A DNA stretch of 64,000 bases from Lentisphaera profundi. GTDB lineage: Bacteria; Verrucomicrobiota; Lentisphaeria; Lentisphaerales; Lentisphaeraceae. Numbering within the stretch: position 1 is the stretch's first letter; each line of letters starts with the position of its first letter. The notes under the pieces are model-generated. The model searched no databases. It was given only the letters and a program-made list of their open reading frames with translations, and was not told the origin of the DNA. The translations under genes and the position numbers were made by a program. This document shows, piece after piece, positions 17,369 through 24,191 of this stretch. The stretch covers positions 372,001 through 436,000 of the forward strand of contig NZ_CP117812.1 of assembly GCF_028728065.1 (NCBI RefSeq). Reading direction: 5' to 3'.

Positions 17369-19255
17369 TTATTCAACGCAGACAACAGCTTTAAGATCAC
17401 GGTGATAGATTTTACCATTAGCGTAGGTGAGTGAACCTACAGTCCAAGTTTTACCGCGTTCACCTAGGTCATTTACCGCAATAAGTGCTTTCTCGTTAAA
17501 AATAGCTGCATTGGCATCTAAGACATAAGTCAGGCCAAGTGCACTCGTGAAATAAACTTTGCCATTCACTGCAGTGGGAGAGCCGAGGAAACATTTTTGG
17601 AAGCCATCACCGCGGGTTCTTGAATCACCGGCATGGCGTTGACCTTTTGAGTTTAGGCCATCATTAGTTTCTTTTGTTTGGTAAAGCCATTGATCTTCTT
17701 TATCTTTTCCACGAATAAGTTCAGTGGGTAGTTCAAGAGTTTCTGTCTTACCAGATTTTGTGTTGTGACGTACGACAAAGGGAGAGTAGCGCATGAGGTA
17801 AAAGAGGTGGTCATCGACGATGATGTTACAATGGCGGGATTGATCTTGTCTTCTGATCTCAAACTGGGGTTCAGTTTTATATTGCTTACTTTCTTTGTCG
17901 TAAAGGTAGCGGTCCATTGTATTGAGCGGGAGCTCATTGATTTGTTTACCATTCGTGGAATCTACGGATATATGTGAAAGTTGTGCGCTGCCGTTAAACC
18001 AGTAAGCTTTCTCTTTGTCCCAATGTTGCGTCGAGAGTGCACCATTGCCAGAAGTTTTATTGTCGTCCTTGGGTTCCCAGCGCCAGAGTATTTCTCCTGC
18101 CTTGTCTTTTTGTAGATTGATCATACTCAGTCCAACAGGGCGCTCTGGGACTCCATGAGGTCCGCCACGTCCAATGAGGACGGATGGCGTGCCATCGGCC
18201 ATTTGGCCTAAGACAGGGGCGTTATAGTGAGTGATCGCATCTTTACATACCCATTGGGTTTTGCCAGTGTTTTTGTCAATGGCACGAAGGTAGTTCCATC
18301 CTTGGTCGCGACTTGTATCATCTTTGTCTGGTGGTTCGACATTAAGTAGAGAATCTCCTGAGAGGATAGAGTCAAACTGTTTATTAAAGGGGCGGCCACC
18401 TGTAGGCATCCAAGTACGTGACCAAATTTCCTTACCTTCAAAATCAAAGCAGGCCATTCCTCCACTGGAGTTGTTTGCCCACACATACGTGCCATCAGTC
18501 GCCGGGCAAGGAGTGGTAGAATCACTAAAGCCATAGTGATAGCCGCTAGACATGAGGCCCTTGATTGTTTTTTTCCAGAGAATTTCACCCTTATTGCTAT
18601 CGAGGCAGACGAGAACAATGTCAGCGCTGGCGCCAGTAGTTTTAAATAAGCGCAAGTATTTTGAAAGTTCCGCATCTAAAGATTTGAGTTTCTTATCTGA
18701 ATTATGGATGAAAACACGTAAGTTATGTTCAGCTTTTTTTAAGTGTTTCCCTTCGTCAGTTGAAGATAGTAGGCGTTTACGGCTACGTTCAATTTGGTTT
18801 GCGGGCATTTTTTTACTGCGTTTTGTAAAAAAATCGTTCCATGTTTTTAGGGAATTATTCAAAGCCTTGGACATTTCGATATAAGTAGAGTCATCTTTAA
18901 GTGTATTGACTACGTTGGATTTATAAGTGTCGTATGCTTTTTGGGCTAGTCCTAGTTGAGTTTTTATTTGAGCAAAAGCGGGGGTGTCTAATTCTGGGTT
19001 GATGGTTAAAAAAAGTTTATCGCCCCATACCGCAATGCCACTTTGCCCGCCTTCAGGAAGTTCCGTACGCCATTTTATGTTTTTACCTGTGCGCACAGAC
19101 CATTCAGTGGGCACATCTTGGTCTGTAGTCACTTGCCAATTTCCTTGAGGGCCGCCAGACATGGGCCAGCTTTGTTCGAATTTATCATTTGCGCTTAAAA
19201 ATAGCATCGATAAAGTACTAAATAATGTTAACTTTTTGATGAAGTGTTTGCCCAT
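17369..19255 (-). CDS. Exported PQQ-like beta-propeller protein
   Basis: 628 residues with a signal peptide (MGKHFIKKLTLFSTLSMLFLSAN) and beta-propeller repeats of the PQQ_2/BamB-like kind: WPMSGGPQGNWQVT, IKWRTELPEGGQSGIAVWGDKLFL, GEILWKKTIKG, GYHYGFSDSTTPCPATDGTYVW, LRAIDKNTGKTQWVCKD, NGKVYFTSALGLTYVLDA. A helical insert of about 100 residues sits in the first third. Such proteins are abundant in planctomycetes and verrucomicrobia; no quinone-binding enzyme motif is recognised, so it is not called a dehydrogenase. It has its own terminator. Confidence 0.8.
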   Translation of the reverse strand: MGKHFIKKLTLFSTLSMLFLSANDKFEQSWPMSGGPQGNWQVTTDQDVPTEWSVRTGKNIKWRTELPEGGQSGIAVWGDKLFLTINPELDTPAFAQIKTQLGLAQKAYDTYKSNVVNTLKDDSTYIEMSKALNNSLKTWNDFFTKRSKKMPANQIERSRKRLLSSTDEGKHLKKAEHNLRVFIHNSDKKLKSLDAELSKYLRLFKTTGASADIVLVCLDSNKGEILWKKTIKGLMSSGYHYGFSDSTTPCPATDGTYVWANNSSGGMACFDFEGKEIWSRTWMPTGGRPFNKQFDSILSGDSLLNVEPPDKDDTSRDQGWNYLRAIDKNTGKTQWVCKDAITHYNAPVLGQMADGTPSVLIGRGGPHGVPERPVGLSMINLQKDKAGEILWRWEPKDDNKTSGNGALSTQHWDKEKAYWFNGSAQLSHISVDSTNGKQINELPLNTMDRYLYDKESKQYKTEPQFEIRRQDQSRHCNIIVDDHLFYLMRYSPFVVRHNTKSGKTETLELPTELIRGKDKEDQWLYQTKETNDGLNSKGQRHAGDSRTRGDGFQKCFLGSPTAVNGKVYFTSALGLTYVLDANAAIFNEKALIAVNDLGERGKTWTVGSLTYANGKIYHRDLKAVVCVE

Positions 19256-19332
19256 GTTCAGCCTGCCTTTGATTAGATTAAGGTTTGTTCTTATCTAACA
19301 GTACCTATCAGAAAGCTACAAGTTTACACTTT

Positions 19333-19362
19333 AAGTAGATGAAAACAGATTTTTATCTACTT
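19333..19362. promoter_or_regulatory. Inverted repeat upstream of the propeller gene
   Basis: AAGTAGAT (19333-19340) and ATCTACTT (19355-19362) with 14 bases between, about 80-110 nt upstream of the minus-strand propeller gene. No T tract on either strand, so it is not a good terminator. It may be an operator or chance. Confidence 0.25.
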
Positions 19363-19417
19363 TGTATAATATTCGACTATTGAAGAGCTGAACTCTGTAC
19401 TTGGAAGGCATGGGGGG

Positions 19418-20722
19418 TTATGAAGCAGGGTATCCATCTAATGTTTCTAATAGGAGCTGATGAATCCTGGATCGACTTTTACGTAAGTGAATGAAGTTAA
19501 TGGGGATATCCTCGGCAGTCAATATTTGTTCGAGTTGCTTGAGGACTATTTTTTTGAGGTCAGGTTGTAAGCCTTTAAAAGCTTGTGAATAGATGAGCCA
19601 AGAACAAGGGAGCTCTGATATGCGTTCTTTGAAGCTCAGTTTATACAAGCTATCGCCATTTTTTCCAGATATTTTATCCTTTGCAAATTCTTCCTTAAAG
19701 TTGGCATTGCCTTCAATGGCTCGCAGGGGGATTTCATCAGTAAATAACATGTATTCCAAGATTTGATCACTCGCATTATGGAGGATTTTCTCAGTGAGTG
19801 GACGACGGCCACTTTCTCCAAGCGCACGATTGATCGACTTTTCTGCTTCAATCATTTTGATGGCTTGGAAATTCCGCTGGGTGAAAATATTATGCATTTG
19901 AACTTGATGCTCAAGGACCATGAGGGCTTCTATATCACTACTCTGCGCCAAATATTTATCCGGATTGAAAAATTTATTGAGGTCATGAGTTGTTAGGGCT
20001 TTATGTGGTTGAGCAATTCGTTTAGAATCTTTTGTATAAATGGTGTTGCCGCGATGTATTTCGGTTTTTTTACCCGTGACATACCATCCTCCCCAGCGCG
20101 AGCCGATGTCAGAACTGTGGTCAATTGTATCAGAACCTAATCGACTGATCGGCTCACCACTTTCGTCGGGAAAGACTGAGCGAATAAAAAAACCTGGCTC
20201 ATTTAAAGTTCTACTTGATACATGGCAGGAGAGGCAAGAGTCGTCGCGTTTAAATTGTATGGTCTCATTTTGTTTTTGTTCTAGAGTATAGAACACCGCT
20301 CCTAATTCTGGATCTGAAATCGCAATCTCTAAAAGTTTAGTGCCAGGTACCCAGCCCACGTAGATTTCATCATTAAAGTAGAGTGCCCGCGGATTGCTCG
20401 GATAAATTTGTTTACGATGAAAGCTCGTTTTAGAGAAAATGAGAGTTTGTGAATTAATAGGTATATCTAATTCTTTAAGTAGGGCATCTAAAAAGCCTCG
20501 TCGTGAGTGGAAATCAAGCTTAACTTTTTTTTCTAGAAGCGCTTTGTTAAGTGTTTCAATATCATTGTTCGCCTGACGGTTTTCATAATTAATGAGTGCC
20601 GTTTCATAGAGGTCGTTGGCCCTTGAAGAATTTGGGCTCACAAGTGAAAAAGCTAAAAGAGTGAAGCTAAAAAGCTTGATTGCGGAGAATGGAGATGAGA
20701 TGATAAGTTTCATATAATTCAC
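19418..20722 (-). CDS. Exported protein with one c-type haem site, unknown function
   Basis: 434 residues (431 if the second Met, MKLIISS, is the start). Signal-peptide-like N-terminus (KLFSFTLLAFSLVSPNSSRAND). One CxxCH haem-attachment motif, C163-LS-C166-H167, in the context RDDSCLSCHVSSRTLNEPGFFIRSVFP. The rest shows no recognised domain. It is likely a periplasmic redox or structural protein. Its neighbours on the same strand are also exported (5'-nucleotidase, PQQ propeller), but each seems to have its own promoter region. Confidence 0.65.
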   Translation of the reverse strand: MNYMKLIISSPFSAIKLFSFTLLAFSLVSPNSSRANDLYETALINYENRQANNDIETLNKALLEKKVKLDFHSRRGFLDALLKELDIPINSQTLIFSKTSFHRKQIYPSNPRALYFNDEIYVGWVPGTKLLEIAISDPELGAVFYTLEQKQNETIQFKRDDSCLSCHVSSRTLNEPGFFIRSVFPDESGEPISRLGSDTIDHSSDIGSRWGGWYVTGKKTEIHRGNTIYTKDSKRIAQPHKALTTHDLNKFFNPDKYLAQSSDIEALMVLEHQVQMHNIFTQRNFQAIKMIEAEKSINRALGESGRRPLTEKILHNASDQILEYMLFTDEIPLRAIEGNANFKEEFAKDKISGKNGDSLYKLSFKERISELPCSWLIYSQAFKGLQPDLKKIVLKQLEQILTAEDIPINFIHLRKSRSRIHQLLLETLDGYPAS

Positions 20723-20776: not shown

Positions 20777-22246
20777 TTATTTAAGTATCAGTGTTTTTTC
20801 AAAGGTAGGTAGCTTCATTTTTAGTTGATTTCGTACAGCATCTCGAGTTTTGATAGGCAGCTCAGTAAGTTTAGCAGATGCTTGAGAAATAATAGTTTTT
20901 AGAACGGGGAAACGATTCCCTCCACTTGCCGCGACTCGACTATTAATACATAGACTTAGTTTGTCTTTATGTAGATCTTTAGTTTTTAGAATGATGGTAT
21001 CGTTCTTCTGGTCATAAGTGAAGTTGATGGGTGCGTTAAAGCTGTATGATTTATAGTAGGACATTTGTTCCTGCATGATTTGTAGTAATTCAGAAGGGCT
21101 GACTTTTACGGTAAATAAATCATTTTCATATGGAATGATATCAAAGAGTTCACGCTCGCCTATGGGTCCTTGCTTGAGGCTTTTGCTACTTAAACGTCCG
21201 TGTATGGCAATATCTGCATCACTAGCATTAATGACGGCATGGCCAATGAGATGAGTGATTTCACAATTAAGGCCAATTTTCGCAGCCCGCAGGTCTTTCG
21301 AAAGGGTAGTTATAGGTTTAGCCAAATGTTGTTTGAGATCTTGATGAATATTCTTCATCAGTTCTTGTGCTTTTGCGTCAATGGGAGTGTTATGATCAAT
21401 TTTTATGAGTTCTGAACTGATTTTTAAGGGATTCTTTTTTGAGAAATTCACAATGATCTTGGCTAGGTGTTCAGTGTGAGCCCCCGCTTGAGTATAAAAA
21501 ACGCCACTCCTGCTGAGGTAAGCAGCGTGTTCTCGGTGGGTGTGACCTCCGAGGATTAAATTAATTTCGGGGTACAATTTAGCGATGTCAAGAACTTCAT
21601 TAACTTTGCGATCATCGCGAAAAGCGATCCCCTGATGAAGAGCTAAAATGATTAAGTCGGCCTTTTCTTTGATGATATTTGGCATGATCTGAGCGAGGGC
21701 TTCTTTTGCACTCCAAACGCGGCAGTTTGAGAATTGTGATCCAGTTGACCAGTATTCTAAAAAAGAAGCTTGCATGCCAATGACAATGATTTTTTTATTG
21801 GCGCGCTTATACGTTAGGTATGGTTTGAAGTGAAAGGCCTTTTTGGGGATGAACTCAAAATTTGCACTGAGTACGGGGATAGTGCTTTGCTTGCAGAGTT
21901 CAAGAAATCGAGCTGAGCCAAAATCGAGTTCATGGTTGCCAGGAATCCAGGCATCGTAGTCTTGGTAATTGAGCATCTTTATAGCAGCGGCGCCTCGAGT
22001 TAATGAAGCGGATAAACTGCCTTGGATAGTGTCGCCACAATCAATTAATAAAGTATTGCTCCTTCCCTGTTGAGTTCTTAGTTCATTGATTTTTGAAGAC
22101 ATCCTAAGCCAGTTTGCCTTATGATTAGAATCTTCGGCAAAAACATTACTATGGATATCAGTACTTTGTAAGATGAGCAAGCTTTGTTCAGCATGGCAAA
22201 AAAGACTGAGGAAAATCATTATGAAAGCACTATGTATGTATGGCAT
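20777..22246 (-). CDS. Exported 5'-nucleotidase / 2',3'-cyclic phosphodiesterase family protein
   Basis: 489 residues of the UshA/CpdB family: signal peptide (MPYIHSAFIMIFLSLFCHAEQ), a metallophosphatase domain with QSTDIHSNVF, DCGDTIQGS, PGNHELDFG and GGHTHREH carrying the two-metal ligands, then the C-terminal 5'-nucleotidase substrate domain (SSELIKIDHNTPIDAKAQ, DIAIHGRLSSKSLKQGPIGERELFDIIPYENDLFTV). It releases phosphate and nucleosides from nucleotides in the periplasm. The exact substrate is not readable. Confidence 0.9.
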   Translation of the reverse strand: MPYIHSAFIMIFLSLFCHAEQSLLILQSTDIHSNVFAEDSNHKANWLRMSSKINELRTQQGRSNTLLIDCGDTIQGSLSASLTRGAAAIKMLNYQDYDAWIPGNHELDFGSARFLELCKQSTIPVLSANFEFIPKKAFHFKPYLTYKRANKKIIVIGMQASFLEYWSTGSQFSNCRVWSAKEALAQIMPNIIKEKADLIILALHQGIAFRDDRKVNEVLDIAKLYPEINLILGGHTHREHAAYLSRSGVFYTQAGAHTEHLAKIIVNFSKKNPLKISSELIKIDHNTPIDAKAQELMKNIHQDLKQHLAKPITTLSKDLRAAKIGLNCEITHLIGHAVINASDADIAIHGRLSSKSLKQGPIGERELFDIIPYENDLFTVKVSPSELLQIMQEQMSYYKSYSFNAPINFTYDQKNDTIILKTKDLHKDKLSLCINSRVAASGGNRFPVLKTIISQASAKLTELPIKTRDAVRNQLKMKLPTFEKTLILK

Positions 22247-22302: not shown

Positions 22303-23322
22303 ATGACGGGCAATAAGATGAATGAAATGATGATCATTGGTTTAGGGGAACGGGCCGGTGATTTAATTAGTGACCTACCAAAGATGAATAATTTTGCAAA
22401 GCTTATTGCTCTTCGTGAACAGAAACGTTATTCGCGCGAGAGTCAGATTAAGACAATTAATTTAAAAGAGCGTATGCCGTGGCGCGAACTATGGATCCCA
22501 GAAGGTGGCATTGTCGTCCTCTCGGATTTAGACAATTTGGAACGAGGCGAAGATTTACTGAAGTTAAGTAAAAAATTGAATCATAAGAAAGTGATTTATC
22601 TACTCATTCGTCCTCACCGTTTAGAGGGGGACCTGAAGCTAAATCGAGCGAACAAAATCATTGAAAAGCTCGTAGAAAATAAATCGGCGGTACTCTGTCT
22701 GGATGATGAAGTCTTAATTTCAGATATGAGTTCTAGTCTCGATGAAGCGTTTACAAAGATGAAATCATTGATTGCTCAGAGTGTCGGCTTTTTTGTTGAT
22801 ATGTTGCGAGAAATGGGACCGGTAAAAATCAATTTAAATGATTTGCGTTATTTACTAAAAGATGATTATGGCGTTGTTAACTTTGCTCATGGTAAGGGCC
22901 GTAGGATCAATGATTCGGTAGAGGATTTATGGAGTTCAAAGCTCTTGGGGAAATCAAGAGACTTAGCAGATGTTGGCTTGCTCTATATGAGAATGGGTTC
23001 TGCTCATGGTGATCTAAACGTATTGCATGATTTGGGCACTACAGTGGAATTAGCATGTCCTGAAAATTGTCAGTTTTTACGAGCTTATGGCGAAGGATTC
23101 AGTGAACCTGAAGATATTGAATTGTGGGTGGCTTTGATACGGATAAATAAACTTGAGGCAACAAGGCCAAAGCCATCGAGAGCGCCTCGTGAGACCATGA
23201 AAAAATTGAGCTATGATGAAGATTTAATGCACATGTTTCTGAGGCATGAAAATACCGCAGGTCTGATGACGAAGCTCAAAGTCCCTACTTATAAGCGTCT
23301 AGGGATAAAGGTAGAGAAGTGA
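22303..23322 (+). CDS. Divergent FtsZ-fold protein lacking the GTPase motifs
   Basis: 339 residues that follow the FtsZ plan from end to end. N-terminal IIGLGERAGDLI (11-22) sits where FtsZ has IGVGGGG. KKVIYLLIRPHRLEG (95-109) matches the FtsZ strand TVGVVTRPFxFEG, followed by the paired helix and LDDEVL for NDRLL. GPVKINLNDLRYLLKDDYGVVNFAHGKG (172-199) matches PGLINVDFADVxxVMxxxGxAxMGxG. The end KVPTYKRLGIKVEK resembles the FtsZ C-terminal peptide (DVPTFLRRG). Missing: the GGGTGTG G-box (here VLSDLDN, 72-78) and both catalytic Asp of NxDxxD (here N177-x-N179-x-x-R182). So probably an FtsZ-like pseudo-GTPase, perhaps a division regulator. It overlaps the next gene by four bases. Confidence 0.7.
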   Translation: MTGNKMNEMMIIGLGERAGDLISDLPKMNNFAKLIALREQKRYSRESQIKTINLKERMPWRELWIPEGGIVVLSDLDNLERGEDLLKLSKKLNHKKVIYLLIRPHRLEGDLKLNRANKIIEKLVENKSAVLCLDDEVLISDMSSSLDEAFTKMKSLIAQSVGFFVDMLREMGPVKINLNDLRYLLKDDYGVVNFAHGKGRRINDSVEDLWSSKLLGKSRDLADVGLLYMRMGSAHGDLNVLHDLGTTVELACPENCQFLRAYGEGFSEPEDIELWVALIRINKLEATRPKPSRAPRETMKKLSYDEDLMHMFLRHENTAGLMTKLKVPTYKRLGIKVEK

Positions 23323-24191
23323 AAATATTTTTATTAGTATCAGTCATATTTTTCTGTAGTTGTGAAGCAGAAATAAAATCACGAATTAATGGGGAGCGCT
23401 GTATTGCCTTGGTCCAAAAACAAATTGATTTTGGACCACGTCTATTGAATTCACCTGCAGCCAAGCAGACGGCTGAATGGATTGCCGCAGAAGCGAAAAA
23501 ACACGGTTGGAGTGTCGTTATAGACGAATGGACTGAAAAGCACCGAGGTAAAGTGAATACCTATCGCAATGTAATATGTACCTTAGCAGGAGAGAGTGAT
23601 GATTTTATTCTCTTGGGTTCACACTATGACACAAAAACAATTTCAGGGAAGCCTAATTTTGTAAGTGCAAATGATGGTGGTTCAAGTACGGCTCTGTTAT
23701 TGGAATTGATGTCACATATTCCTAAAAATAAAATAGCCGTTCGAGCCGTTTTTTTTGATGGAGAAGAATGTGAAGTTAATTATTCGAATAATGATGGTTT
23801 ACATGGAAGCCGGCGCTACGCCACTCAGCTAGTTTTAGCTAATACGGTAAAACAGTGTAAAGCGATGATTCTTCTCGATATGATAGGAGATAAAGATTTA
23901 CACATTGCGATTCCCGCAAATGGTGACAAACCCTTGAAAGATTTACTTATGAAAGTGGCCAAGAAAAATGATTGGGGGCAGTATTTTTCTAAGGGAACTA
24001 ATTCGGTTTTGGATGATCACGTACCGTTCGTAGAATTGGGCGTGCCTGCGATTGATCTAATCGACTTTAGTTATGGTCCAGGGAACTCTTATTGGCATAC
24101 AGAAAAAGATACGATTGATAAATTATCGCCTAAGAGTTTTCAAATTGTGGGTGAGCTAACTTTACAAGTGCTGGAAAAATTACGTCCATAA
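23319..24191 (+). CDS. M28-family zinc peptidase / glutaminyl cyclase-like lipoprotein
   Basis: 290 residues. GTG start within GTGA overlapping the stop of the FtsZ-like gene. Lipoprotein signal with lipobox region VIFFCSC. Zinc ligands of the M28/QC fold are visible: His and Asp in GSHYDTK and ANDGGSS, the Glu pair in FDGEECE, LLDMIGD, and YWHTEKDTIDKL near the end. This arrangement (GSHYDTK, DGEE, WHTxxDT) resembles bacterial and animal glutaminyl-peptide cyclotransferases as much as aminopeptidases. Location: outer or inner membrane surface facing the periplasm. Confidence 0.82.
   Translation: MKIFLLVSVIFFCSCEAEIKSRINGERCIALVQKQIDFGPRLLNSPAAKQTAEWIAAEAKKHGWSVVIDEWTEKHRGKVNTYRNVICTLAGESDDFILLGSHYDTKTISGKPNFVSANDGGSSTALLLELMSHIPKNKIAVRAVFFDGEECEVNYSNNDGLHGSRRYATQLVLANTVKQCKAMILLDMIGDKDLHIAIPANGDKPLKDLLMKVAKKNDWGQYFSKGTNSVLDDHVPFVELGVPAIDLIDFSYGPGNSYWHTEKDTIDKLSPKSFQIVGELTLQVLEKLRP

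Follow-up and report, generated by a model that had tools for sequence, protein, structure and literature searches.

Our analysis indicates that the genus Lentisphaera has one FtsZ, encoded at the orthologous ftsZ locus, that has lost its GTP site as judged from sequence and has kept its C-terminal tail. The gene lies in a window of 64,000 nucleotides (G000:C2:372001-436000) from a 5.46 Mb, two-contig genome of the genus (G000). The features discussed below are, in window coordinates:

22303..23322, + strand: degenerate FtsZ, 339 aa, the sole FtsZ of the genome
22339..22362, + strand: T1 loop remnant GLGERAGD (canonical GxGGxGxN; glycines 1 and 3 kept, later ones changed), from alignment
22411..22520, + strand: T2-to-T4 stretch, with LRE in place of NTD/DTD and the T3 loop (GxGxGGDxxxG) deleted, from alignment
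22522..22560, + strand: position of the G-box (GGGTGTG), here SDLDNLERGEDLL, with every G-box glycine gone, from alignment
22609..22638, + strand: T5 motif RPHRLEGDLK, with P and E139 retained and R143 changed to K, from alignment
22738..22806, + strand: core helix H7 (residues 146-168), with the guanine-contact residue D187 changed to K/Q/R, from the AlphaFold2 model and alignment
22816..22848, + strand: T7 loop GPVKINLNDLR, from alignment
22849..23157, + strand: activation (C-terminal) domain, retained as a fold in the model, with the block ADVGLLYMRMGSAHGDLNVLHDLGTTVELACPE invariant in the genus (three-species comparison)
23158..23217, + strand: variable disordered linker, 20% invariant over three species
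23218..23319, + strand: C-terminal module with the putative FtsA-docking peptide KVPTYKRLGIK at its end, 85% invariant in the genus, from alignment
20777..22246, - strand: upstream neighbour, divergent, 5'-nucleotidase-like
23319..24191, + strand: downstream neighbour, overlapping, M28 peptidase

Elsewhere on the same contig, two adjoining ORFs (L192:16271-17911 and 18074-19501) are identical over their first 70 residues, an apparent tandem duplication.

Homology and predicted fold

Neither Pfam Tubulin nor FtsZ_C matched the Lentisphaera protein, and no other Pfam family did. TIGR00065 (ftsZ) matched it with an E value of 5.4e-7, at 29 bits against a family cut-off of 295 bits. When the protein was used as a phmmer query against the PDB, the best matches were all FtsZ (1.3e-4). 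Profile-profile comparison with 12 FtsZs from other classes of the phylum gave 97.7% probability (E 1.5e-12), and the same FtsZ profile recovered the protein in a whole-genome search (E 2.8e-14). Significant homology spans residues about 95-258, the N-terminal third being too diverged. A search of plasmids yielded no relative, and PHROGs had no match to this protein.

We modeled the protein with AlphaFold2 from a 30-sequence alignment that included true FtsZs (pLDDT 80.7, pTM 0.77). The elements of the model follow the order of FtsZ: a Rossmann part, core helix H7, an activation domain extending to about residue 282, a disordered linker, and a tail helix. In a Foldseek comparison with the PDB, the 50 matches listed were all FtsZ (best E 1.9e-18, TM 0.58-0.71). 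The support for the fold depends on the FtsZ-containing alignment, since a model made from the three congeners only was uninformative (pLDDT 38.8). A preliminary description of this DNA had proposed an FtsZ fold and named profile-profile searching and superposition of a predicted structure as checks; both favor FtsZ. On sequence and model together, the protein is FtsZ by descent, as it combines FtsZ homology, a Rossmann part with H7 and activation domain, and an orthologous locus.

A single gene at the ftsZ locus

FtsZ-profile and tubulin searches found no second FtsZ or tubulin in the three Lentisphaera genomes (G000, G001, and G002), and Pfam Tubulin_2 had no match in them. Two other weak FtsZ-profile matches in G000 (L002 and L003) were read as a TcdA-like E1 protein, which is the next-best match after this gene, and an alcohol dehydrogenase. 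A true FtsZ hidden by an assembly gap is unlikely, given that the three genomes are independent and that one is assembled in just two contigs; the G002 assembly comprises 6.0 Mb in 80 contigs.

The neighborhood is that of ftsZ in a sister genus (G004 and G005), where the G-box is intact. Canonical ftsZ is flanked there by a divergent upstream 5'-nucleotidase gene (40% identity to the Lentisphaera neighbor), and in G004 it is followed by an M28 peptidase gene (50% identity). Constraining the FtsZs of family f1 to a single clade raised the likelihood by 7.4 relative to the unconstrained tree (p-AU 0.78). As no other FtsZ was found, and given this synteny and clade likelihood, we conclude that the gene is ftsZ itself, changed: the sequences show it to be orthologous to ftsZ by position and single copy in three genomes.

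These results bear on the earlier proposal that the protein is a paralogue that caps, modulates, or competes with a true FtsZ. A precedent is ARC3, a chloroplast division protein derived from FtsZ that has a degenerate GTPase domain. The Lentisphaera protein resembles ARC3 in both respects, and a pseudo-GTPase with an FtsZ fold and an intact tail is what a capping or inhibitory paralogue would look like. However, ARC3 acts beside true FtsZ1 and FtsZ2. In Lentisphaera there appears to be no true FtsZ to modulate, because none was found in the three genomes, including the one in which the preliminary description had advised looking for a normal FtsZ, and because the gene itself occupies the ftsZ locus. 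A canonical ftsZ would have to be missing from all three separate assemblies, each time within the few percent left unassembled. We therefore consider a regulatory paralogue very improbable.

The preliminary description had also advised looking for orthologues in other Lentisphaerae; the gene is present in all three Lentisphaera species. Within the genus, pN was 0.13-0.16 and pS was 0.73-0.80, similar to nearby miaA; we claim no exact ratio because synonymous sites are near saturation. Thus, the sequences show purifying selection on ftsZ, and the open frame, this selection, and conservation in three species rule out a pseudogene. The stem branch leading to Lentisphaera is very long (5.77 changes per site, versus 0.09-0.16 for the tips). 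Such a branch would fit a vestige: division would be independent of FtsZ and driven by FtsA, MreB, or peptidoglycan, with the protein in a non-division role, such as regulation of FtsA, or on its way to disappearing. Complete loss of FtsZ in other PVC lineages (PMC5147048, PMC12283558) lends this some plausibility. Against it, the gene is strongly constrained, is present in every species of the three, and has short branches within the genus. We judge a vestige quite unlikely.

Loss of the GTP site

We tallied residues in an alignment of 126 FtsZs of the phylum (E. coli numbering), divided into 3 Lentisphaera, 79 other class members outside family f3, 11 f3 members, and 33 outgroups. The roles of the tallied residues in GTP binding or catalysis are well established for FtsZ. 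In all three Lentisphaera species, G104 is replaced by D, G105 by S or N, G106 by L, T107 by E, and G110 by E, such that no G-box glycine is retained, as had been noticed at the outset for the single sequence. Elsewhere, glycine occupies position 104 in every class member outside f3 with data (78/78), in 11/11 f3 members, and in 33/33 outgroups. The three species also have G or Q for D46 of T2, lack T3, and have D for N166 and K, Q, or R for D187. Among the 79 class members outside Lentisphaera and f3, D46 is D in 76 and E139 is E in all 79. What Lentisphaera retains is two T1 glycines, the T5 proline, E139, and F183.

The T7 loop reads K-I-N-L-N-D, with GPVKINLNDLR aligning to GLINLDFADLR. 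N207 corresponds to K175, D209 to N177, and D212 to D180. Thus, the NxDxxD catalytic motif is not intact, and one of its two aspartates remains. The preliminary description had reported no catalytic aspartates; it was right about D209, which is Asn, but it had mis-registered the loop and so missed the retained D212. A non-canonical T7 is widespread, also among sequences with an intact G-box: N207 is found in 7/79 class members and D212 in 31/79, and D212 is Asp in 16/33 outgroup FtsZs, making T7 loose across the whole phylum. With D212 in so few class and outgroup sequences, T7 is not diagnostic of a functional GTPase here.

The sequences show that Lentisphaera FtsZ has lost its GTP site, and the protein presumably does not bind GTP. 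The loss of the G-box, T2, T3, and guanine contacts supports its initial classification as a pseudo-GTPase.

A true Z-ring could also form without GTP, if the protein assembled protofilaments like those of FtsZ, either constitutively or with a different ligand bound in a reshaped pocket. The presence of both the N- and C-domains and of H7 in the model, retention of D212 and of the T5 Pro and Glu, and the strong conservation of the activation domain in the genus are all in keeping with such filaments. On the other hand, most of the longitudinal interface on the nucleotide side is gone with T3, the G-box, and T2, and several f3 species keep the gene without any activation domain (see below). We regard these protofilaments as conceivable but on the whole unlikely.

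The C-terminal tail and FtsA

The tail sequence VPTYKR is at the expected place near the C terminus, after a variable linker, and it retains the P, T, and R that are invariant across FtsZs. KVPTYKR also fits the pattern (D/L)(I/V)P(T/A)(F/Y)xR, so the earlier claim of a preserved C-terminal peptide holds. P and R are present in every class sequence with data, and T in nearly all. FtsA docking could be altered in Lentisphaera, since Lys replaces the Asp of LDIP, which is invariant elsewhere.

FtsA, the type of partner that had been named for this peptide, was found in 95/95 class genomes, although a few short matches among these could represent other actin-like proteins. The ftsA gene of G000 is an orphan (G000:C2:241025-242056). 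Its product matches solved FtsA structures, has a likely amphipathic helix at its C terminus, and retains Arg and Glu at the positions of R301 and E304 in T. maritima FtsA, a pair that we take to contact the FtsZ tail. Lentisphaera FtsA is divergent, scoring 150 bits versus 233-278 in sister genera. Median FtsA scores were 145 bits in Lentisphaera, 157 in f3, and 220 in the rest of the class (Mann-Whitney p 1e-8, uncorrected for kinship). Within the family, MreB differs very little (477 versus 500 bits). Also present are FtsW, encoded next to MurG, as well as a MurA-like gene and MreB.

A second decay of FtsZ in family f3

In family f3, six genomes carry an FtsZ that lacks the whole activation domain, has an intact tail, and adjoins ftsA. 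These are:

G011, L068:4098-4997
G022, L065:2056-2844, - strand
G039, L064:2774-3553, - strand
G047, L066
G048, L158
G027, L156

In four others (G029, G033, G045, and G049), the activation domain is kept and T3 and the G-box are eroded. The gene of G035 (L178:1012-1710, + strand) encodes a 233-aa product with a worn Rossmann part, an FtsZ tail, and little else; its downstream gene is shared with G027, and it is apparently the end point of this erosion. Progressive decay down to such a remnant is another observation that would favor a vestige. Throughout f3, decay always spares the tail, and a longer module (GIF...N.D.P...R) is kept with it. Since G104 is still glycine in all f3 members, Lentisphaera decayed by a different route, and f3 decay is independent of it. 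Several f3 species have lost the activation domain yet keep the gene, so the function conserved in f3 is not filament formation.

Other unusual tubulin-like proteins were seen in these genomes. Family f27 (G110 L171 and G132 L172) has very long-branched FtsZs with an altered G-box (GGAMGSAG in G132) and no T7. Family f17 has a second tubulin-like protein of 367 aa (G053 L077:2336-3436; G051 L078:1290-2390, - strand) that matches Pfam Tubulin (8.9e-10) and PHROG PhuZ (2e-4) and is perhaps of phage or plasmid origin.

Discussion

Because the tail is kept, the nucleotide pocket is lost, and FtsA is kept, the constrained function of Lentisphaera FtsZ is most simply FtsA docking, to recruit or organize the divisome without treadmilling driven by GTP. 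The explanation we prefer, and hold to be fairly probable, is that the sole ftsZ orthologue has been reduced to a nucleotide-independent, FtsA-docked adaptor or scaffold, with FtsA and peptidoglycan synthesis driving division. On the branch to Lentisphaera, ftsZ would have lost the G-box, T2, T3, and guanine contacts, with T7 altered, and this new form would then have been fixed under purifying selection. Its FtsZ-shaped core may assemble or bind partners without GTP, while the C-terminal peptide would dock on membrane-bound FtsA and so connect to the synthases of the septal wall. There would be no treadmilling powered by GTP hydrolysis, and constriction would be driven by FtsA filaments, peptidoglycan synthesis (FtsW, MreB), or both. 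FtsA docking, the adaptor role, and the mode of division are what we infer from these genomes. The wall-making cells of Lentisphaera thus probably divide without a GTP-driven Z-ring. A wholly different, unrecognized division filament may also exist in the genus.

Lentisphaera FtsZ resembles canonical FtsZ in domain order, H7, activation domain, T5 P/E, linker, tail, locus, and fold by Foldseek, and differs from it in lacking the G-box and T2/T3, in its replaced guanine contacts and T7 changes (N207K, D209N), and in having no Pfam match. With other FtsZs of the class Lentisphaeria it shares a single copy, a long C-terminal module ending NLDIPTFQRRGI, and a loose T7, but the 79 sequences outside Lentisphaera and f3 retain a glycine-rich G-box and E139; f3 alone decays similarly. 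The FtsZ-less PVC lineages (Planctomycetes, Chlamydiae) likewise have peptidoglycan machinery and no working FtsZ GTPase; however, they have lost ftsZ and mostly ftsA, while Lentisphaera retains ftsA and a remodeled ftsZ. FtsZl-1 and FtsZl-2 (PMC2875224) are also divergent bacterial FtsZ/tubulin relatives, but the Lentisphaera protein is an ftsZ orthologue and belongs to neither family.

Lentisphaerae divide by binary fission, and L. araneosa is recorded as encoding FtsZ (PMC5147048); the dcw genes of Lentisphaerota are counted as highly conserved (PMC12283558). Because surveys score the gene and cluster in this way, the degenerate site has probably gone unnoticed. Our literature search, which did not extend to the original PVC dcw paper (Pilhofer 2008), found no report of it.

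The essential task of FtsZ is debated, being either treadmilling and force production driven by GTP or simply the recruitment of wall synthases, and the transition from FtsZ-based to FtsZ-free division in the PVC group is an open question. The balance of evidence tips slightly toward a free-living, peptidoglycan-making genus that relies on a sole FtsZ unable to bind GTP, in which the conserved role is that of the tail in recruiting or organizing FtsA. Together with f3, independently stripped to part of the Rossmann domain and the tail, it would be a case in which the scaffold is naturally separated from GTPase activity and treadmilling. In the class Lentisphaeria, FtsZs grade from forms that bear the G-box to ones that are almost dismantled, and drugs and concepts directed at the nucleotide site of FtsZ should not be applicable to Lentisphaera. 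The cultured Lentisphaera species, with FtsA, FtsW, and MreB intact, look like an experiment of nature on "FtsZ without GTPase."
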